This document shows, piece after piece, positions 27,741 through 37,267 of a DNA stretch of 64,000 nt. Made by a program: the position numbers and the translations under genes. How positions within the stretch are numbered: position 1 is the stretch's first letter; each line of letters starts with the position of its first letter. The stretch comes from Citromicrobium sp. (GTDB taxonomy: Bacteria; Pseudomonadota; Alphaproteobacteria; Sphingomonadales; Sphingomonadaceae), in NCBI GenBank assembly GCA_002729695.1, contig PBYQ01000032.1, forward strand, positions 62,001 through 126,000. The letters run 5' to 3'. The notes under the pieces are model-generated. The model saw only the letters and a list, made by a program, of their open reading frames with translations. It was not told the DNA's origin and did no database searches.

Positions 27741-29305
<1,565 letters not shown>

Positions 29306-29384
29306 TTAGCGAGCCTCACCGCGATCCGCCAGAGGGTGAAGGCCAGTTTCAAGAGCGGGGGGCCGCCGGTGCGGCACTCACCGT

Positions 29385-30074
29385 TCAATAGAAGGCGAAA
29401 ATTCCGATCGATGCGATCAGGTTCCAGCCGATGTGAGCGGCAATTGGGGCCGCGAGCCGCTTGCCCCGCCACCAGTAGAGCAGCGAAAGGAGGGTTCCGC
29501 CGTACACGCCCGTATCGAGGATACCTGCCCACCCCTGATAGCCGTGGCTGAGGGCGAACAGGATGGCGACGATCACCGTCGCGAGCACCCGGCCAGGCAC
29601 CCTGTCGCCGAACAGCAGCACCAGGCCGCCGAGTAACAGTCCTCTGAAAAGAATCTCTTCCGCACTCGACCCAAGCAGGGCGAGTACGACGAATCCCGCC
29701 AGCCCGCTCCATTCCTTGCCGATCTGCGCGGCGTTCGCCACGATGTCGGATCGCGCTGCTCCACCCGTTGCCGGGATGATGACCAGGAATTGCAACGCAC
29801 CGAACAGGATCGCGATGCCAAGGCCGATGGCGACGTCGGACCCGGCCTTTTCCAGCGTGAAACCCGCAGCCTTGGGAGACATGCCGGCAATCTTCATCGC
29901 CAACAGGACGATGGCTCCACCCGCGATCAGTTCGAACGCGCCGAGCAGGCCGTACCGCAAGCCGCCTTGCACCCCCACGCCGTTGACCAGCAGGGCGTCG
30001 GCGGCAATCACCGCAGCATACCATGCAACCAGGCCCGCAATGAGGCCGCCGAGCAATCGCGCTTTCGAAATCAT
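29385..30074 (-). CDS. CPBP-family intramembrane metalloprotease
   Basis: The 229-residue membrane protein has about seven hydrophobic segments and the Abi/CPBP (Rce1-like) motifs: AEEILFRG (the EExxxR motif) near residue 139, FALSHG near 175 and HIGWN near 217. These are the glutamates and histidines of the membrane glutamic or metal-dependent protease site. In bacteria such proteins act in peptide maturation, immunity or membrane maintenance; no partner peptide gene is seen. ATG 30074 or GTG 30080 could start it; neither has a clear ribosome site. Confidence 0.8.
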   Translation of the reverse strand: MISKARLLGGLIAGLVAWYAAVIAADALLVNGVGVQGGLRYGLLGAFELIAGGAIVLLAMKIAGMSPKAAGFTLEKAGSDVAIGLGIAILFGALQFLVIIPATGGAARSDIVANAAQIGKEWSGLAGFVVLALLGSSAEEILFRGLLLGGLVLLFGDRVPGRVLATVIVAILFALSHGYQGWAGILDTGVYGGTLLSLLYWWRGKRLAAPIAAHIGWNLIASIGIFAFY

Positions 30075-30177
30075 GCGCACAGGTTAGTGAAGTGCGCGGA
30101 CAGTAAGCAATCCGATCTGAAGTAACCGGTCGATCAGAATGAGTGGTTGAACCTGATCGAAGCCTTGCAGGATGTGA

Positions 30178-31206
30178 TCAGCCGCCCTCTTCCATCAGAC
30201 CATGCTTTTTGATGCAGTGTCGCAACTGGTCGTAACTGACGCCAAGCGCCTTGGCGGTCTGTCTTTGATTCCAGCGATGCTTGCCAAGCGCATGTTCGAC
30301 GATCGAGCGTTCGTGGCTGTCGACCGCCGCGCGCAGGTCGGCAATATCGTCGAAATCGGGGCGCTGGGTTGCGGCAGCGCCGCGTGCAATGTCCGTGGTG
30401 TTCTTGGCCGGCGCGGGCGATGCCTCGGGCTTCCATGGGCTGTCGAACGGGTCGAACACGATATGGCCCACGGGCGTTTCCGGATCGTCCCAGCGATATA
30501 CCGCGCGCTCGATCACGTTTCGAAGCTCGCGCACGTTGCCCGGCCAGGGGTATTCCTCCAGCTCGGTCGCGACATGCTCAGCATAGCCGGGCCAGGCTTC
30601 CCAGCCCAGCTCGGCCGCCATGCGCCTTCCGAAATAGTCGGCCAGCACCGCGATATCGCCTTCGCGCGCGCGCAGCGGAGGCAGGGTGATGACCTCGAAA
30701 CTCAGCCTGTCGAGCAGGTCGGCGCGGAATTCGCCGCGTTCCGCCTTGGTCGGCAGATCCTCGTTCGTCGCCGCAACGATGCGCACATCCACGCGCATCG
30801 GGCGCGACGATCCGATCCGCGTCACCTCGCCATACTCCACCGCGCGCAGCAGCCGCTCCTGCGCCGCCATCGAAAGCGTCGCGAGTTCGTCGAGGAACAG
30901 CGTGCCGCCATGCGCCTCTTCGAACCGGCCCTCGCGCGACCGGGTCGCGCCGGTGAAGGCACCCGCCTCGTGGCCGAACAGTTCCGCCTCGATCAGCGTT
31001 TCGGGCAGCGCGGCGCAGTTCATCGTGATCAGCGGCTCGCCCCAGCGCGGGCTCAGGCGATGGAGGCGTTCGGCGATCAGTTCCTTGCCCGTCCCGCGCT
31101 CCCCGATGACCAGCACCGGGCGCTGCAAGGCGGCCGCACGACTGGTCCGCTCGACCGCATCGAGGAAGGCGAGCGATTGCCCGACGAACTGATTGTCCCG
31201 CTCCAT
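30178..31206 (-). CDS. pspF: Sigma-54 activator of the phage-shock operon
   Basis: The 342-residue protein is an AAA+ sigma-54 activator with no N-terminal receiver domain, as in PspF. It has Walker A GERGTGKE (35-42), the sigma-54 contact loop GAFTGA (82-87), Walker B GTLFLDE (101-107) and a C-terminal Fis-type helix-turn-helix (about 310-335; [15 protein letters not shown]). In enterobacteria PspA binds PspF and holds it inactive until membrane stress. It is divergent from the psp operon, with the sigma-54 promoter at 31308-31323 in between, so it should drive that promoter. ATG 31206 begins the family-typical region. Confidence 0.92.
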
Positions 31207-31307
31207 GCCCCGCAATATAGCGCTGAGGCCCAAGGCTTGGCAATTATCACCAACATGTCGTTCGTCGAAATTTCTGAGAGTGGCAGATCTCCGCCATTTC
31301 CCTGATT

Positions 31308-31323
31308 TGGCACGCGGGTTGCA
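31308..31323 (+). promoter_or_regulatory. Sigma-54 (RpoN) promoter of the psp operon
   Basis: TGGCACG-CGGG-TTGCA matches the -24/-12 consensus exactly, with GG at 31309-31310 and GC at 31321-31322 at the required ten-base spacing. Transcription should start around base 31334, about 25 bp before the first ORF at 31359. The divergent pspF gene supplies the activator. This is the best-supported promoter in the window. Confidence 0.9.
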
Positions 31324-31358
31324 ATGTTAGGAGCAACACCAAGTGAGGGAACGCGATC

Positions 31359-31511
31359 ATGCAAGAACAAGCCCAGTCAAAGCACCATTTCGGCAAGGCC
31401 CTGCTGATCACGATCCTGGCAACGGCGGCGTTGGTCGCGATGAATCCGCTGTCCGCAGATGAGATTCAAACGAGCAGCCCGCTCGTGCTACAGACGATGG
31501 AAGTGGCATGA
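31359..31511 (+). CDS. 50-residue membrane or exported peptide, first gene of psp operon
   Basis: This short frame lies between the sigma-54 promoter and pspA. It encodes 50 residues: a polar start (MQEQAQSKHHFGK), one hydrophobic helix (ALLITILATAALVAMNPL, about 14-31) and a polar tail ending QTMEVA. The helix could be a signal peptide with cleavage after LSA or a membrane anchor. GAGGGA lies eight bases before the ATG, and the stop overlaps the pspA frame in an ATGA. I know no named family; the position, ribosome site and overlap argue that it is translated. Confidence 0.65.
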   Translation: MQEQAQSKHHFGKALLITILATAALVAMNPLSADEIQTSSPLVLQTMEVA

Positions 31512-32359
31512 CCGACTATACCGACCCGCCCGGCCGCATCGGCCGCACCTCGCGCCTCGACAACGAGGTCGAACGGTTGCGCCGCAGCCCCACCCCCACG
31601 CAGAGCCCCTTCGCAACCGAAGGCAGCGCGGCGGGCGGCACCCCATTCTACACCGGAGGCTTCATGGGCATCTTCAGCCGCACCCGCGACATCATCGCGG
31701 CCAATTTCAACGAAATGCTGGATAAGGCAGACGACCCTTCGAAGATGATCCGCATGATCATCCTCGAAATGGAGGAAACGCTCGTCGAAGTCCGCGCGAG
31801 TGCCGCGCGCACGATCGCCGACCAGAAGGAAATGCACCGCCACACGGTGAAGCTCGACAAGCTTCAGGCCGACTGGTCGGAGAAGGCGCAGCTCGCGCTT
31901 TCGAAGGACCGCGAAGACCTGGCCCGCGCCGCGCTGGTCGAACGCAAGAAGGCCGCCGACATGAGCGAGCAGCTCAAGGCGGAAATCGGCGTGCTCGACG
32001 ATTCTCTGCGGGCGTACGAGGAAGACATCCACAAGCTGCAAAGCCGCCTGCGTGAAGCGCGCAGCCGCCAGTCGCAGATCGCCGCCCGGCTCGAAAGCGC
32101 GGAGAACCGCGTGAAGCTGCGCAGCCTGATGACGACCGAGCGCGTCGACGAAGCACTCACCCGCTTCGACTCGCTCGAACGCCGGGTCGACTACGCGGAA
32201 GGCCGTGCCGAGCAGCTCAAGATGGAAAGCGAGAGCGGCAAGCTGTCGCTGTCGGACGAAATCGCCGCCCTCGCAGGATCGGACAAGGTCGACGAGGAAC
32301 TGGAAGAAATGAAACGCGCGCTCGGCAAAGGGGCCGACGACGCGAAGAAGGGGGACTGA
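31508..32359 (+). CDS. pspA: Phage-shock protein A (PspA/IM30 family) with N-terminal extension
   Basis: The core (from MGIFSRTRDIIAAN, residue 53) is the long coiled-coil PspA/IM30 protein: an N-terminal membrane-binding amphipathic helix then helices to about residue 270. PspA covers damaged inner membrane and, in known systems, inhibits PspF. Counted from 31508 the protein has 283 residues, with 52 extra at the N-terminus (Pro/Gly/Thr-rich, basic RLDNEVERLRR). The internal ATG 31664 would give the usual 231 residues, with GGAGG four bases upstream. I record the long form because the ATGA overlap couples it to the preceding ORF, but the short form is possible. Confidence 0.9.
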   Translation: MTDYTDPPGRIGRTSRLDNEVERLRRSPTPTQSPFATEGSAAGGTPFYTGGFMGIFSRTRDIIAANFNEMLDKADDPSKMIRMIILEMEETLVEVRASAARTIADQKEMHRHTVKLDKLQADWSEKAQLALSKDREDLARAALVERKKAADMSEQLKAEIGVLDDSLRAYEEDIHKLQSRLREARSRQSQIAARLESAENRVKLRSLMTTERVDEALTRFDSLERRVDYAEGRAEQLKMESESGKLSLSDEIAALAGSDKVDEELEEMKRALGKGADDAKKGD

Positions 32360-32362
32360 TCC

Positions 32363-32674
32363 ATGGAAGAATTTTTGGTCGCCACCGTCGTGCTGGGCGT
32401 TCTGATCGGCCTTCCGTGGCTGATCCTCCACTACGTCACCAAGTGGAAAACCTCAGGCGGCGGCATCACCAGCGATGACGAGGCGCTGCTGGAAGAGCTC
32501 TACGCGCTCACCAAACGTCTCGACGACCGGATGGACACTGTCGAGCGACTGGTCGCCCACGACCATGCGGACTTCAGGCCCGCCCGCCTGATCGCCGACA
32601 ACCAGGCCGACAACGACGAACTCGCCGAGCTGGAAGCCCTGCTCGCCAAGAAGAGGAAGGAAACCCGCGCATGA
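32363..32674 (+). CDS. pspB: Phage-shock protein B
   Basis: The 103-residue protein has one N-terminal membrane helix (about residues 4-25; LPWLILHYVTKWK) and a charged coiled coil (ALTKRLDDRMDTVERLVA, about 49-66) like PspB of enterobacteria, which has the helix followed by RxxxLExIL. PspB with PspC senses membrane stress and relieves PspA inhibition of PspF. It begins three bases after the pspA stop and its end overlaps pspC by ATGA. The tail (about 70-103) is longer than in PspB of E. coli and ends in a Lys/Arg-rich stretch. Confidence 0.88.
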   Translation: MEEFLVATVVLGVLIGLPWLILHYVTKWKTSGGGITSDDEALLEELYALTKRLDDRMDTVERLVAHDHADFRPARLIADNQADNDELAELEALLAKKRKETRA

Positions 32675-33051
32675 ACACCCCCCGCACCACGCTCTACAAG
32701 GACGAGCAGAACGGCAAGCTGATGGGCGTCTGCGCAGGCCTGGCCGACTACACGGGAATCGAAGTTCTCTGGTGGCGGCTCGGCGCGCTCTTCTCGATCT
32801 GGCTGACCGGCGGCCTGATCCTGCCTGCCTACTTCATCATGGGCATGCTGCTGAACAAGAAGCCTTCGCACCTCTACACGTCCGACGTGAAGGAACAGAA
32901 ATACTGGCAGAGCGTCCGCGCCAATCCGAACCGCACCGCTCGCGAAATCCGCGGCAAGCTGCGCGAGATCGACCGCCGCCTGGCCAATGTGGAGGAGCAC
33001 TATGTCAGCTCCAACCCGCGCCTCGACGCCGAAATCGAACGCCTGCGCTGA
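32671..33051 (+). CDS. pspC: Phage-shock protein C
   Basis: The 126-residue protein has the PspC domain (about residues 8-65; KLMGVCAGLADYTGIEVLWW, LPAYFIMGMLL), which contains the membrane segment, and a cytoplasmic or periplasmic helical tail (about 92-126). The end of the tail (RLANVEEHYVSS followed by LDAEIERLR) is the part that recurs in the five small genes downstream. PspC works with PspB to sense stress. It overlaps pspB by ATGA, and 30 bp with GGGGAG separate it from the next gene. Confidence 0.9.
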   Translation: MNTPRTTLYKDEQNGKLMGVCAGLADYTGIEVLWWRLGALFSIWLTGGLILPAYFIMGMLLNKKPSHLYTSDVKEQKYWQSVRANPNRTAREIRGKLREIDRRLANVEEHYVSSNPRLDAEIERLR

Positions 33052-33081
33052 CACCTGAACCCAATAAGGGGAGACTTTAGA

Positions 33082-33393
33082 ATGGAAGGCATACTCGCCC
33101 TGCTCATCCCGATCTTCGCGCTGATGATCCCGATGGTGGCCATCTGGACCAAGCACCAGCAGAAGCTGGCGGAGATGGGTCTCGAGACGACCGCCACCGC
33201 AAGCGCCGAGAAGGCCGCGCAATACGCAACGCAGATCCAGCGGCTCGAAGACCGGGTCCAGGTGCTCGAACGCATCGTGACCGACAAGGGCTACGACGTC
33301 GCCACCCAGATCGAAGCGCTGCGCGATACACGTAGCGTGGAAGATAACCTGACTGGAACGCCGCTCTCGTTCGAAAGCCGGGAGCGCGCCTGA
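33082..33393 (+). CDS. PspC-tail-like small membrane protein 1
   Basis: The 103-residue protein has a membrane helix (about residues 3-23; ALLIPIFALMIPMVAIW), a lysine-rich junction, and a coiled coil RLEDRVQVLERIVTDKGYDV (54-73) ending in QIEALRD. The coiled coil matches the PspC tail and the next two genes. It has no named domain that I recognise. GGGGAG lies eight bases before the ATG, and its stop overlaps the next gene by TGATG, so it is part of the psp transcript. I infer an adaptor that places this tail on the membrane. It may be a PspB/PspC relative produced by duplication. Confidence 0.75.
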   Translation: MEGILALLIPIFALMIPMVAIWTKHQQKLAEMGLETTATASAEKAAQYATQIQRLEDRVQVLERIVTDKGYDVATQIEALRDTRSVEDNLTGTPLSFESRERA

Positions 33394-33734
33394 TGAACGA
33401 GCTTCTCAGCGGCCCCGGCATGATCGTCGTAATCATCGCGCTGTGCACCGCCGGGTGGCTCATCAACAACTGGATCCGCGCCACGCACGGCTACGATCTG
33501 GAAGACGAATGGGGCGGCAAGACGAGCCGCGCCGACAAGTCGGCGGAAATCGAAGCTTTGCGTAGTGAGAACGCGCAACTCGTCCAGCGGCTCGACAATC
33601 ATGCGGACCGGCTGAAGGTGCTCGAGAAGATCGTCACCGAACGTGGCTATTCGCTCTCCGACGAGATCGAGGCGCTGCGCAAGGACGAGAGCAGCGGCGT
33701 TCCGCTGGACATCGGCAAGCGGGAGAGGGTCTGA
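33393..33734 (+). CDS. PspC-tail-like small membrane protein 2
   Basis: The 113-residue protein has a membrane helix (about 9-28; MIVVIIALCTAGWLINNW), a THGYDLEDEWGG segment (31-42), a coiled coil (about 50-98; RLKVLEKIVTERGYSL) and a tail ending RERV. The HGY-LE-W motif occurs again in the next gene (KHGYPLETMWG), which shows a recent duplication. Translation is coupled by TGATG at both ends. Its function is unknown; it is probably a membrane-anchored oligomer of the psp system. Confidence 0.75.
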   Translation: MNELLSGPGMIVVIIALCTAGWLINNWIRATHGYDLEDEWGGKTSRADKSAEIEALRSENAQLVQRLDNHADRLKVLEKIVTERGYSLSDEIEALRKDESSGVPLDIGKRERV

Positions 33735-34060
33735 TGGATGGTGCAATGATCCCCATCATCGCCGTGCTCGGCGGGATGATGATCGGTGGCGCCGGCCTGT
33801 TCGGCTGGATCCACACCACCCGGCTGAAGATCAAGCACGGCTACCCGCTGGAAACCATGTGGGGCGTGCCCATCCACCCGAGCAACAGCGAGGAATCGAA
33901 AGAACGCCTCAAGCTGCTGACGCAGGAAAATGCCCAGCTGCGCGCCGAACTCGGGTCGATCAAGGATCGGCTGGGCAACGTCGAGCGGATCGTGACCGAC
34001 AGCGGATACTCGCTGACCCACGAAATCGAATCTCTTCGCGATAGAAAGGATGCCCACTGA
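33734..34060 (+). CDS. PspC-tail-like small membrane protein 3
   Basis: The 108-residue protein has a membrane helix (about 5-25; GGMMIGGAGLFGW), the KHGYPLETMWG segment (34-44) and a coiled coil (about 55-103; RLGNVERIVTDSGYSLTHEI). Over 24 positions this coiled coil and the PspC tail share 13 residues without a gap. Both ends are joined to neighbours by TGATG. No catalytic residues are apparent. I read it as a duplicate of the preceding gene. Confidence 0.75.
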   Translation: MDGAMIPIIAVLGGMMIGGAGLFGWIHTTRLKIKHGYPLETMWGVPIHPSNSEESKERLKLLTQENAQLRAELGSIKDRLGNVERIVTDSGYSLTHEIESLRDRKDAH

Positions 34061-34356
34061 TGAGCTGGCCTTCTGCCATCGTCCTGATCGTGCTGATCGC
34101 CGCTGCTGCCAAGGTGCTGCGCGCGCGATACCACAGCGAGGCTTTCCTCGACCGTCATGGAAGCGAGCAGCGGGCCGCGATTGAACGACCCGAACGCGAC
34201 TATCGGCGCGACGACGAAGCCGAAGCCGAAATTTCCGCGCTCAAGGAGCGGATCGCGGTGCTCGAACGGATCGCTTACGACAAGAACAGCGTCGATGCGC
34301 GCGAACGCGCCCGCATCTCCGCCGAAATAGACGCCCTGCGCGAAGAGCAGGACTGA
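34060..34356 (+). CDS. PspC-tail-like small membrane protein 4
   Basis: The 98-residue protein has a membrane helix (about 5-20; AIVLIVLIAAAAKVL), a charged linker and a more divergent coiled coil (ERIAVLERIAYDK, then ISAEIDALRE at about 86-95). The insertion between the two parts of the motif makes it the least similar of the coiled-coil group. Its start overlaps the previous stop by TGATG. After its stop 45 bases separate it from the next gene. Its role is unknown. Confidence 0.7.
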   Translation: MSWPSAIVLIVLIAAAAKVLRARYHSEAFLDRHGSEQRAAIERPERDYRRDDEAEAEISALKERIAVLERIAYDKNSVDARERARISAEIDALREEQD

Positions 34357-34401
34357 CGACCGCCGCAACCGGCACCGATCGCACGAAGGAGGATTGACGT
34401 C

Positions 34402-34635
34402 ATGGAGCCGACACTCGTTATCGCCGCCACATCGCTTCTCGGTCTCGGCCTCGTCGCTGCGGCACTGCTGCGCGCCTGGGAAGGCTGGCTGGCGCTGAAG
34501 CGCCGCGAGCTGGACGCCGTCGCCAACGGACGCCGCGACCCGGACGACACGCGCGGTGTGGCGCCGATCACGCTCGCCGATATGCGCGAACGCATCCGCA
34601 AGCTGGAAGCGATCGCCAACGGGGTCGATCTGTGA
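34402..34635 (+). CDS. PspC-tail-like small membrane protein 5
   Basis: The 77-residue protein has a membrane helix (about 4-25; LVIAATSLLGLGLVAAALL), an amphipathic segment (AWEGWLALKRREL) and a short coiled coil at the end (MRERIRKLEAIANGV, 61-75). The latter resembles the first part of the repeated motif, with the EIExLR end missing. AAGGAGG is well placed before the ATG, the strongest ribosome site in the operon. The stop overlaps the GTG of the next ORF by GTGA. Confidence 0.7.
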   Translation: MEPTLVIAATSLLGLGLVAAALLRAWEGWLALKRRELDAVANGRRDPDDTRGVAPITLADMRERIRKLEAIANGVDL

Positions 34636-34808
34636 GCGGCGCGAAAAGCCAGGCCGCGCAGGCCGGCATCGGCCTCGGCAGCGCGATCGCGGTGGCGATC
34701 TCCTGGTCGCTGCACCAATCGATCGTCTGGACGATCGTCCACGGCTTCCTCTCGTGGTTTTACGTCATCTACTACGCCCTCACCCGTCCCGGCGGGATTT
34801 CGGGGTAA
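34632..34808 (+). CDS. 58-residue membrane protein, last gene of psp operon
   Basis: The frame starts at a GTG that overlaps the previous stop (GTGA) and encodes 58 residues with two hydrophobic helices (about 12-26, AGIGLGSAIAVAISW, and 31-50, IVWTIVHGFLSWFYVIYY). The dense aromatic residues (W, F, Y) in the second helix suggest a membrane-interface role. I know no named family. The overlap and its normal codon use support a gene. It ends next to a palindrome cassette, which marks the end of the operon. Confidence 0.65.
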   Translation: MSGAKSQAAQAGIGLGSAIAVAISWSLHQSIVWTIVHGFLSWFYVIYYALTRPGGISG

Positions 34809-34811
34809 ACT

Positions 34812-34977
34812 CCCTCTCCCCGGGCGGGGAGAGGATAGCGGAGCTTGCTCTGTGAAGAGCTAGCGCAGCTTGGAGAGGGGCGTTCGAGGTACGCTCTCCA
34901 GCATACCCCTCTCCAACTCCGCCCAAGATGCCTCTCGGCATCAGGGCTGCGTATCCTCTCCCCTTGAGGGGAGAGGG
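34812..34977. repeat. Palindromic intergenic cassette, copy 2
   Basis: It has the same layout as copy 1: CCCTCTCCCC-GGGGAGAGG stem, the AGC-rich middle with CTAGCG and GAGCTTGC, an inner TTGGAGAGGGG arm, then a second unit in opposite orientation. It lies between the psp operon and sufE, fills the 190-bp gap, and may fold in the RNA downstream of the operon. It may also supply the purine-rich leader of sufE. Confidence 0.8.
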
Positions 34978-34998
34978 ATTATCACTAAATGCGGACCC

Positions 34999-35406
34999 AT
35001 GCGCAGTCTCGACGATATCCGCGAAGAATACGAATTCCTGGAAGGCGACGAACGCTATCGCCTGCTGATCGAGCTGGGACGCGAGCTGGAGGAAATGCCC
35101 GACGCGCTGAAGACCGACGCCACGCTGGTGCGCGGCTGCTCGGCAGCGGTGTGGGTCTATCCGACCGGCGAGGCGGACAAGCTGCACTTCCTGGCCGACA
35201 GCAACGCCGCGATCACCAAGGGCATCGTCGCGCTGGTGATCGCCGCCGTGCAGGACAGGCCCGCAGCAGAAGTCGCGCAGATGGACGTGGTCGGCGCGCT
35301 CGAACCGTTCGATCTCAGGAACCAGCTGTCGAGCAACCGGACGCAGGGCGTGCCCAACATGATCGCGCTGGTGAAGGAACACGCCGCGCGGATTTCGGCG
35401 GGCTAA
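34999..35406 (+). CDS. sufE: Fe-S cluster assembly sulfur-transfer protein
   Basis: The 135-residue protein is of SufE type: DIREEYEFLEGDERYRLLIE at the N-terminus and the sulfur-accepting cysteine in LVRGCSAAVWV (Cys47). SufE takes persulfide from SufS and passes it to SufBCD in the cytoplasm. The frame is open through the upstream cassette; ATG 34999 gives the usual length. No sufS or sufBCD is in the window, so it is an isolated family member. Confidence 0.9.
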   Translation: MRSLDDIREEYEFLEGDERYRLLIELGRELEEMPDALKTDATLVRGCSAAVWVYPTGEADKLHFLADSNAAITKGIVALVIAAVQDRPAAEVAQMDVVGALEPFDLRNQLSSNRTQGVPNMIALVKEHAARISAG

Positions 35407-35416
35407 TCCCCAGGCA

Positions 35417-36205
35417 TCAGAGCCGGCTTCGATAGTCGATGCGGATACGCACCCAGCTGCCGATCTGCGGTTTGCCGCCGAGCATCGGCGGGCGAACGCG
35501 GAATTGCCACGCGGCTGCCAGGATCGCACGGTTGATCATCGACCCTCGCGGCGATTCCTCGATCGGCACGCAGTCGACCACGCGAAATTGCGGCGCAGTC
35601 TTGCACGCGATCAGGCCCCAGCCCGGCCCGTTCGCGGTGGAGAGATAGCCGGACAGCTCACCGTCATACGGTTCGCGATACCAGCGCGCGGCGTAGAGAG
35701 GTTCCCCGTTGGGCGCGGTGCCGACCACCTTGGAATCGGGAATGCCCGACTGCGATCCGGTGTCGACCGGCCCGTAGACCTGCTTGGGCGCTTCAGACTG
35801 GGCCGGACGCTCAGGCTCCTTCGCCGAGGGCAGTTTGAACGGCGTCGGGATCACCGCCTGCGCGATCGGTGGCGGAGGCGCGACGGCATCGGGCTGCACC
35901 GGCTCGGGACGCTCGACGGGCGTGTCCTGCGTCTGCGCGGGCTGCTCGGTCGGTTGCGCGGTATCGCTCAGCTCTTGTTCCGGCTCCTCGCGATCGTCCG
36001 GCGGCTCGTTCTGCGCCTTGAGATCGACCACGGTCAAACTGCCCGGTGCGGCGGTGGGCTCGTTATGGATGTTCAGCGTCAGGAGCACGATCAGCAGGAT
36101 CGCCTCGATCAGCAGCGCGACGACGAGCCCGACCACCCGCCGCCCGCGCTCGCTGCGCAAGGGCTCCAACAGCGGATGATCGCGAAGAGTCTCTGGCTGG
36201 AGCAA
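35417..36205 (-). CDS. TonB-like energy-transducing protein
   Basis: The 262-residue protein has the TonB layout: a short cytoplasmic start, a membrane helix (about 24-44; VVGLVVALLIEAILLIVLL), a Pro/Glu/Gln-rich periplasmic linker (about 60-150) and a C-terminal domain (about 170-262) ending with WQFRVRPPMLGG and WVRIRIDY. No exbB/exbD is next to it. It may bridge the inner membrane to outer-membrane transporters. The start is TTG 36205, with GAGG four bases upstream, since no ATG lies before the membrane helix. Confidence 0.75.
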   Translation of the reverse strand: MLQPETLRDHPLLEPLRSERGRRVVGLVVALLIEAILLIVLLTLNIHNEPTAAPGSLTVVDLKAQNEPPDDREEPEQELSDTAQPTEQPAQTQDTPVERPEPVQPDAVAPPPPIAQAVIPTPFKLPSAKEPERPAQSEAPKQVYGPVDTGSQSGIPDSKVVGTAPNGEPLYAARWYREPYDGELSGYLSTANGPGWGLIACKTAPQFRVVDCVPIEESPRGSMINRAILAAAWQFRVRPPMLGGKPQIGSWVRIRIDYRSRL

Positions 36206-36330
36206 CGGGCCTCAGGGTGTATGCGCCGGGCGCGATCCGCGGCCCGGTGCGACTGGATAGGTTCCCTGCGCTGCAGGAGCAAGCGCGCAACGCGAGCGCG
36301 ACCCGCCCCGGCAAGGGAGACAGCGCGGAG

Positions 36331-36732
36331 TTAGCGCGTGAGTGACACCTTCTCAGCCGCTTCGCTCTCTTGTGGAACCGTTTCGCTCGCTTCGCGATGC
36401 ATCTCGAAGGTTCCGTCGAACTCTGGCAAGAACCAGGTGCCCGTGATGGACTGGCCATCCTCGCTCATGCGGCCGCTATAATCGACCGGGGTCTCGTAAG
36501 CTGGCCCGGCCAGGCGATAGGTCTTGGTGAATTCGATCGCCCTGCCCGAGCGGAGACCCTCCACCTGCGCGTGCGCAGTAACCGGGCGATACGCGTTGGG
36601 TTCGATAATTTCGCCCGAGAAGCGCTCCCCGACTTCCGAAAGGACTGCGACAAACGGCGTCTCGGGCCCAAAATTGTTCGAATACCGATAGGTACCATCC
36701 CAGCGTCCGGTCAGGTCCAGCCGAGCCGCCAT
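36331..36732 (-). CDS. Hypothetical beta-rich protein
   Basis: This 133-residue protein has no signal peptide or membrane segment. The sequence is made of short strands with Trp/Tyr and Gly turns (DLTGRWDGTYRYSN, GRMSEDGQSITGTW), which suggests a small beta-barrel, lipocalin-like fold. A charged tail (EASETVPQESEAAEK) follows. I do not recognise a named family. The gene is 16 bases downstream of crtZ on the same strand and might belong to the carotenoid transcript. Confidence 0.65.
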   Translation of the reverse strand: MAARLDLTGRWDGTYRYSNNFGPETPFVAVLSEVGERFSGEIIEPNAYRPVTAHAQVEGLRSGRAIEFTKTYRLAGPAYETPVDYSGRMSEDGQSITGTWFLPEFDGTFEMHREASETVPQESEAAEKVSLTR

Positions 36733-36748
36733 CGTGCGATGCGGACGC

Positions 36749-37267
36749 CTAGGCCCCCGCGCTCTCGCGCACGACTGCTTCGCCCGCCTCGCGCTGGCGC
36801 TTGAGTTCGGCTTTCAGTTTGACCGGGTCCTGCGGGAGCACGAAGCCGAAGCTTACCCCGCCCTCTTTTCCGATGGTTGCGTGGTGCAGCTTGTGCGCCT
36901 GCACCAGCCGCTTGGCGTAGCCGCGTTTGGGCACGTACCGGAAATAGCGCTGGTGGACGAGGCCGTCGTGAACCAGCGTGTAGATGATCCCATAGCCAAG
37001 GATGCCGACGCCGATCCAAGTCGCCGGGGCCCACGCATAATTGCCCGCCACCAGCGGACTGCCGAGCATGAACATCGAAATGCTCATCGCCGCACCCACC
37101 ACGCCGTAAAGGTCGTTCTTCTCGAACATCTTGTCGTGCGGTTCGTGGTGGTCACGGTGCCAGCCCCAGCCGAACCCGTGCATGATGTACTTGTGACTAG
37201 CCCACGCGACCCATTCCATCGCAGCGATGGTCGCGAGGACGATAAGGAGGGGGACGAGCACCTGCAT
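36749..37267 (-). CDS. crtZ: Beta-carotene hydroxylase
   Basis: The 172-residue membrane di-iron enzyme has the fatty-acid-hydroxylase histidine boxes HKYIMH (25-30), HRDHHEPHD (37-45), HDGLVH and HKLHHA. These bind two irons. It adds 3-hydroxyl groups to beta-ionone rings, leading to zeaxanthin or other xanthophylls. No other crt genes are nearby. It fits the yellow-orange pigmentation of Erythrobacteraceae. The gene lies between a thioesterase and a hypothetical gene on the same strand. Confidence 0.92.
   Translation of the reverse strand: MQVLVPLLIVLATIAAMEWVAWASHKYIMHGFGWGWHRDHHEPHDKMFEKNDLYGVVGAAMSISMFMLGSPLVAGNYAWAPATWIGVGILGYGIIYTLVHDGLVHQRYFRYVPKRGYAKRLVQAHKLHHATIGKEGGVSFGFVLPQDPVKLKAELKRQREAGEAVVRESAGA

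Follow-up and report, generated by a model that had tools for sequence, protein, structure and literature searches.

The question raised by the locus described here is what a phage-shock operon would do with five additional small membrane proteins. In the window, by which the whole analysed stretch of 64,000 nucleotides (nt) of Citromicrobium sp. contig PBYQ01000032.1 is meant, positions 31308-34808 hold a sigma-54 site followed by ten genes of the + strand, the last ending at 34808, namely a short leader gene (Z), pspA, pspB, pspC, the array genes X1-X5, and Y. The locus may be regarded as a PspF/sigma-54 phage-shock operon with its membrane-sensor part multiplied. The reading favoured here, which we hold to be moderately probable, is that X1-X4 are membrane anchors recruiting or holding PspA by means of shared tails and differing in their heads, the binding being predicted from the likeness of these tails to that of PspC.

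An earlier note on the same DNA had described five one-helix charged proteins after pspABC and then a membrane protein of 58 residues, and this description was borne out, with the refinement that known Psp parts have relatives in X1-X4. In each of X1-X5, a single hydrophobic helix at the N-terminal end is combined with a charged C-terminal part. On the + strand throughout, X1 (33082-33393), a divergent relative of PspB, contains one transmembrane (TM) helix and a C-terminal module (33199-33324); X2 (33393-33734, alignment A7), one TM helix, the segment RxxHGYxLExEWGG and the module (33555-33680); X3 (33734-34060, A2), one TM helix, the segment KxGYPLExxWG and a long helix with the module (33914-34039); X4 (34060-34356, A6), one TM helix and the module (34216-34341), here with a 7-residue insert. 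The module, about 40 residues long, reads xLxxENAxLxxExxxLxDRxxVLERIVTDxxxxLxxEIExLR in alignment A8, whose profile was built from array genes, those of the window included. X5 (34402-34635, A5) shows one TM helix, WxxWLxLKxREL and the C-terminal LKERIRKLEAIAxGVDL, and Y (34632-34808, A10), the 58-residue membrane protein, is probably accessory, being found in 17/60 relatives (9/10 in the genus), with some copies away from psp. The number of lysines and arginines after the hydrophobic helix exceeds that before it in 432/432 X proteins of 80 loci, the helix having been a selection criterion and the charge side not, and X1-X4 are probably single-span anchors oriented N-out/C-in. For X3, AlphaFold gave helices at residues 5-35 and 53-107 (mean predicted local distance difference test score, pLDDT, 78.4; predicted template modelling score, pTM, 0.35). 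Solved structures offered weak generic coiled coils only (best E 0.016) and were rejected as relatives; X2 had matches of 22-27 residues to two PHROGs families of uncharacterised function, and X4 had no match in a plasmid collection.

The evidence that carries the reading is the likeness of the shared module to the PspC tail. In profile comparison by hhalign, the X families were joined to each other at 99.6% (X2-X1), 99.8% (X2-X3), 97.7% (X1-X3) and 98.5% (X1-X4), and to the PspC family at 93.9% (X3), 80.3% (X4) and 71.9% (X2), in each case over the last 35-42 columns of the PspC C-terminus; the pooled module, with X3 as the query row, reached the same C-terminus at 93.8%. By profile, the module of X2, X3 and X4 is similar to the PspC C-terminus, and the part of the local protein matched by these three families and the pooled module is its cytoplasmic tail (32944-33048, +). 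Single sequences scored on TIGR02978 at 1.1e-3 (X1), 0.025 (X2) and 4.3e-3 (X3), with none for X4, and the PspC domain PF04024 was not matched by X1-X4 in the Pfam scan. The profiles of PspC and PspB themselves were related at 13.6%, and X1, X2, X4 and X5 were related to PspB at 7.7%, 7.2%, 4.9% and 0.6%, respectively. X1 alone scored on the PspB models below their cut-offs (PF06667, 7.8e-4, 19.9 vs 25.6 bits; TIGR02976, 1.5e-5, 25.2 vs 51.7 bits), and no PspB match was found for X2-X5 in the Pfam and NCBIfam scans.

The PspC cytoplasmic tail is the part reported, in the portions of the literature available, to capture PspA under stress. According to the excerpts of PMC6003685, PspC and PspA no longer interact when V125 of Yersinia PspC is changed, and PspC-dependent signalling was lost with the equivalent E. 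coli change, V105D. In a MAFFT alignment with the E. coli PspC tail, R97 is kept in 339/342 X segments and E102 in 338/342, and the V105 column holds V in 192, A in 120 and I in 23 of the 342 modules (335 together); V105 of E. coli PspC falls within RLREMERYVTSDTFTLRSRFRQL. This set had lost 12/354 genes without the end pattern used for cutting, a pattern that also determines columns 115-119 in part.

The array was found conserved across the sampled genomes of the family. The X3 similarity scan gave 129 relatives, 80 of them kept, in records named Erythrobacter, Qipengyuania, Citromicrobium, Novosphingobium, Sphingomonas, Blastomonas, Sphingobium and others; the counts of loci refer to 79 fetched loci and the window, with L009, whose pspC was unrecognised, left out of the array counts. 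Since the loci were chosen by X3 similarity, X3 is present in every fetched locus, and the counts free of this selection are those of the X5, module and PspA searches in genome samples of the order, class and phylum, which are lower bounds because only first-look candidates were scored. Among the 80 loci, 3 to 9 X genes occur, some arrays being clipped by contig ends; X5 is the last X gene in 78/80 and X4 stands directly before it in 74/80. Only 1/460 X and Y genes is matched best by another gene of its own locus, from which it follows that the X kinds are old and kept apart, and recent tandem amplification of the X genes was rejected on the same figure. The profile search and the mapping of gene order next to pspA, proposed in the earlier note, thus found the array conserved: X5 is present in 83/86 genomes of the family of the window, and weakly in 1/61 from other families of the order, and in 81/83 of the family genomes it lies on the same strand within 6 kb of PspA (422-3028 nt, distances unsigned and either PspA copy accepted). 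The module occurs in 86/86 family genomes with 1 to 7 matches each (at least 3 in 82; a single one in G109 and G133), these being genome-wide counts in which a few matches may represent stand-alone genes or a PspC tail. It was also found, with 1-2 matches each, in 44/61 other genomes of the order; in 8/290 genomes of the class sample, 5 of them of the family, leaving 3/285 outside it, two weakly, and one outside-family match (G169) sits where its PspC tail is expected; and in 44/299 of the phylum sample (17 of the family, 2 of the order, 4 of the class and 21 outside the class). As PspA is present in 142/147 genomes of the order sample, the presence of the array does not merely reflect that of PspA. 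An apparent loss of pspB in 11 loci proved an artefact of the overlap rule, pspB being recovered in 8/8 loci with a readable pspA core, with the other 3 lacking that core; G045 and G124 gave no PspB match in the neighbourhood of pspA and pspC.

The setting of the array is that of a psp operon predicted to be under PspF and RpoN control, recognised by a divergent pspF, a sigma-54 promoter and pspA-pspB-pspC, all of which are present. The gene pspF (30178-31206, - strand; ATG at 31206, stop at 30178) codes for a sigma-54 activator with the AAA+ Sigma54_activat domain (PF00158, 8.9e-61) and a Fis helix-turn-helix (HTH_8, 2.6e-6). The consensus sigma-54 promoter claimed earlier was confirmed at 31308-31323 (+) as TGGCACG-N4-TTGCA with zero mismatches (TGGCACGCGGGTTGCA), the sole such site in the window; four were counted in the 3.01 Mb genome (46 contigs), with one for a backwards control pattern, and the genome contains the RpoN gene. 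The other three perfect sites are clustered within 2.6 kb on another contig (G000:C27:27451-30054, L197-L199), beside open reading frames (ORFs) which by eye resemble FlgA/FlgM/FlgN. A looser pattern lies no more than 520 nt upstream of the PspA core in 69/74 core-recognised loci, the window included, a count made without shuffle control. PspA, PspB (32363-32674, +; PF06667, 2.1e-18; TIGR02976, 80.5 bits) and PspC (32671-33051, +; PF04024, 6.2e-16; TIGR02978, 123.5 bits) each exceed the NCBIfam cut-offs, PspA with 267.2 vs 242.95 bits on TIGR02977.

The ten same-strand, mostly overlapping ORFs at 31359-34808 with divergent pspF, as previously listed, were all found in place; 6/9 junctions overlap by 1 or 4 nt and the other three are gapped by 3, 30 and 45 nt. 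In all ten genes GC content is highest at the third codon position, by a narrow margin in X4, and chance ORFs were rejected on this codon pattern together with conservation in 80 loci. Across these loci, the gaps following pspC are at most 60 nt in 460/466 cases, with overlaps of 1 or 4 nt in 235, a share somewhat inflated because the choice of starts in the fetched loci favoured short gaps. The gaps and overlaps suggest that pspABC and the array are carried on one transcript. A single terminator-like site of the + strand lies inside Y (34739-34757), the sites being seven in total vs a shuffle mean of 3.5, and no Rfam families were found within 29000-37000. Downstream of the operon, an ORF resembling SufE by eye is situated at 34999-35406, and a like ORF follows the array in 7/9 loci examined.

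A second unusual feature is found at the front of the operon, where the pspA frame (31508-32359, +; core from 31664) opens 52 codons ahead of the usual PspA start MGIFSRTRD, a refinement to the earlier note. Between promoter and pspA lies Z (31359-31511, +), a leader gene for 50 amino acids (aa) with one hydrophobic segment and with no match in Pfam, NCBIfam or PHROGs; an ORF of 38-90 aa with a hydrophobic segment occupies this place in 68/69 loci with the looser promoter. The Z homologues of many relatives end in (V/L)E(I/L)A. The ATG at 31508 is suggested as the predicted pspA start by its 4-nt overlap with Z, and such an overlap with the stop of a leader-type ORF occurs in 51/55 loci with the motif-bearing extension, the window included, these being 55/74 loci with a recognised core. 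If this ATG is used, the amphipathic helix does not stand at the extreme PspA N-terminus, as 52 residues precede MGIFSRTRD. The extension is variable save for SRLDxEVERLRxSPTPT, whose SRLDxEVERLR resembles the end of the X module; the helix motif (residues 14-26, 31547-31585, +; alignment A9) includes SRLDNEVERLR, and the sole helix in the extension by AlphaFold, residues 16-26, is in a low-confidence stretch.

This motif was searched for with a 21-residue profile at a threshold of at least 6 bits, reached by PspC in 40/82, X2 in 14/57, X4 in 14/76, X3 in 10/82 and X1b (an X1 subtype) in 6/48 cases, by 5/3679 background ORFs, among which are antisense non-gene ORFs, and by none of X1 (0/94), PspB (0/72), PspF (0/70) and X5 (0/78). 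Within the last 60 residues, real vs shuffled sequences gave 31/79 vs 5/1580 for PspC, 27/56 vs 1/1120 for X2, 16/75 vs 11/1500 for X4, 6/48 vs 4/960 for X1b and 3/80 vs 0/1600 for X3. X1 is the first array gene in 52/54 loci with the extension motif and in 3/19 without it, an association that may merely track the species tree. In the literature searched, as far as its text was available, no description was found of a PspA whose N-terminus carries a conserved docking-like motif.

The origin of the array may be approached from variant loci, among them some outside the family. Among 36 genomes outside the family with a PspB-type match, the longer regions covered 33, with one more (G336) seen as a 3.2 kb locus and G224 and G416 left out; in 29/33 of these alphaproteobacterial pspABC loci, no array-type gene was detected after pspC with the present profiles. 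The remaining four comprise two with two small X1-like genes after pspC (L109 and L110, of another family) and two with the order pspB-pspC-pspB-pspC (L116 and L124), the latter two being observed in one alphaproteobacterial family. In L109, one X1-like gene codes for a PspC-type tail (TIGR02978, 5.5e-7) and the other for a PspB-type end (PF06667, 39.3 bits, over the cut-off), and in G045 PspC is tailless and no PspB was found, yet X1 and X4 follow. Three genomes of family f8 (L144, L165 = L195, L167) have pspC, a short tailless second PspC and a single module gene, and a second psp cluster in G131 (L194, C1:208500-216500), apart from the main array, contains a second PspA, a tailed PspC-like gene and X5.

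Single-TM module proteins also occur as stand-alone genes (L142, L148-L154, L156, L157 and L169-L189, where L181-L189 show some of the others over a longer region); several families of the order have them, and so do genomes that do not belong to the class. They are mostly of 70-100 aa, and in 21 of these loci (L169-L189) no psp gene was found in regions of 6-6.5 kb and no neighbouring ORF family was common to more than 3/21. Their being PspF targets, in the manner of pspG, was considered and rejected, a sigma-54 score of 13 being reached in 0/21 upstream regions, 4/420 random stretches and 4/5 pspA positive controls. With such intermediates and stand-alone genes, the array looks as though small genes of PspB/PspC-tail type had been brought together in the psp operon and had diversified at an early date. 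Stand-alone small membrane proteins with a PspC-type tail were not found described in the literature searched, within the parts of it at hand.

Several results weigh against the anchors as read here. X1 alone was aligned to the PspC C-terminus at only 8.2%, so that its module rests on likeness to X2-X4. X3 was related to PspB at 34.1% over 18 columns and the pooled module at 25.2%. X4 often contains an insert in the module and has A at the V105 column in 58/74, and the local PspC itself has Y there in 79/80, with V one column later in 62/80. X5 is tied to the module weakly, by 16 columns to X1 at 8.9%; the earlier claim of membrane adaptors recruiting PspA is supported in part, since a conserved series packed behind pspC, with a PspC-tail-like module in X1-X4, is what it would lead one to expect, and it reaches X5 and Y weakly or not at all. 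As to the PspA motif, the profiles of X3, X4 and PspC pick the same extension segment, in a short match of 3-9% probability, and the pooled module aligns elsewhere, at the PspA C-terminus (7.6%), for which reasons common descent of motif and module is not demonstrated; in the last 60 residues, X1 gave 0/91 real vs 8/1820 shuffled matches. The stand-alone genes, away from psp and with no sigma-54 site, indicate that the module need not mean a link to PspA.

The likeness to PspB is what would recommend X1-X4 as silencers, their tails pairing with the PspC tail, holding PspC off PspA and setting one or more induction thresholds. X1 scores on the PspB model (its relative in G012 at 2.4e-7), the single TM helix and charge bias are those of PspB, and a title cited in PMC5596341, the only part of that work at hand, says that the cytoplasmic domains of PspB and PspC interact and silence the response. 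Against this, the module fits the full PspC tail better than PspB (93.8% vs 25.2%) and the true PspB was retained in 8/8 loci re-examined for its apparent loss, and we consider silencing unlikely. The array proteins might instead act without regulatory role as stress effectors, assembling with PspA into patches or a scaffold in the membrane and so sealing or stiffening the bilayer, an idea with which an old, diversified array packed behind pspA-pspB-pspC agrees, as does the protection of the Yersinia membrane by PspB and PspC themselves reported in the available text of PMC3467454; but the best conserved part is a signalling-type tail with the rest variable, which makes a purely effector role unlikely, a double role being still compatible with it. 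That the X genes are redundant duplicates of PspB or PspC tails, kept by drift or dosage and having no separate functions, is very improbable: the varying size of the array, clipping aside, and the two family genomes with one module match are in its favour, but X4 keeps its place before X5, the best matches of nearly all copies lie in other loci, and residues particular to one type are invariant, for example GYP and WG in X3.

Compared with the classical pspF-pspABC(DE) locus of E. coli K-12, the operon shares the divergent pspF, the sigma-54 promoter and the pspA-pspB-pspC order, but differs in having Z before pspA, an extended PspA, and five X genes and Y after pspC; no pspD or pspE was matched among the ten genes in the Pfam and NCBIfam scans. 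The X proteins resemble PspB (PF06667/TIGR02976) in having a single TM helix at the N-terminus together with a charged helix, whereas the X module has an additional LxxEIExLR end. The PspC tail, which the excerpts of PMC11237479 treat as a divergent C-terminal PspB fused to PspC, is like the module of X1-X4 a helical element of about 40 residues near the end of the protein, but in X1-X4 it is placed on a single-span anchor lacking the PspC domain. The same excerpts record PspB duplicates in some psp operons (example AOL22920.1), with more than one PspB-like gene in the pspABC operon as here, and the operon of AOL22920.1 is possibly the same kind of locus; their text on the duplicates gives no array order, PspC-tail identity or PspA extension. 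They also name LiaI/LiaF, PspM and Toastrack proteins as membrane partners of PspA-family proteins; the Pfam and NCBIfam scans gave the X proteins no such match. PMC9239133, in the text available, treats PspA/PspC contexts without such an array, the words "sphingo" and "alphaproteobacteria" being absent. The suggestion of the earlier note that this could be an undescribed form of the system is thus qualified by the PspB duplicates on record, and holds for the array order, the PspC-tail nature and the family-wide spread, which were not found described in the literature searched, mostly open-access and partly seen.

Zymomonas mobilis is a relative, and its gene ZMO1062 may be the Z gene, a guess from the gene number. 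In this species, pspA, pspB and pspC are up under ethanol, with the hypothetical ZMO1062 counted in the psp regulon (PMC3495753, in the part available), and ZMO1062-1065 are up on xylose (PMC8645129, likewise in part).

For the favoured reading, with X1-X4 as anchors that recruit PspA, we infer a course of events partly expected from E. coli and Yersinia. At rest, PspA would inhibit PspF as in these bacteria; when the membrane is disturbed, the tail of PspC, and probably the tails of X1-X4 too, would capture PspA at the membrane, which would free PspF and place PspA where it is needed. The likely gain, as helix, juxtamembrane segment and linker differ among X1-X4 while the tail is kept, would be several inputs or several sites feeding one output, and the motif of the PspA extension would perhaps serve to dock on the same partners or to compete for them. 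A bolder proposal, which we regard as doubtful, is a combinatorial code, in which X heads, PspC and the PspA extension would carry one exchangeable docking helix and compete or co-assemble on PspA. If this were true, one effector polymer would integrate many membrane inputs, and the stand-alone module genes would be further heads unlinked to psp.

According to the excerpts of PMC6003685, the way in which PspB and PspC sense membrane damage and relay it to PspA has yet to be worked out. Natural single-span proteins which keep a PspC-type tail and change the rest would separate the output part from the input part, and by this separation the sensing part vs the PspA-catching part becomes testable. 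Sphingomonads are widespread and find use against pollutants, a setting in which solvent stress and membrane stress are of importance.

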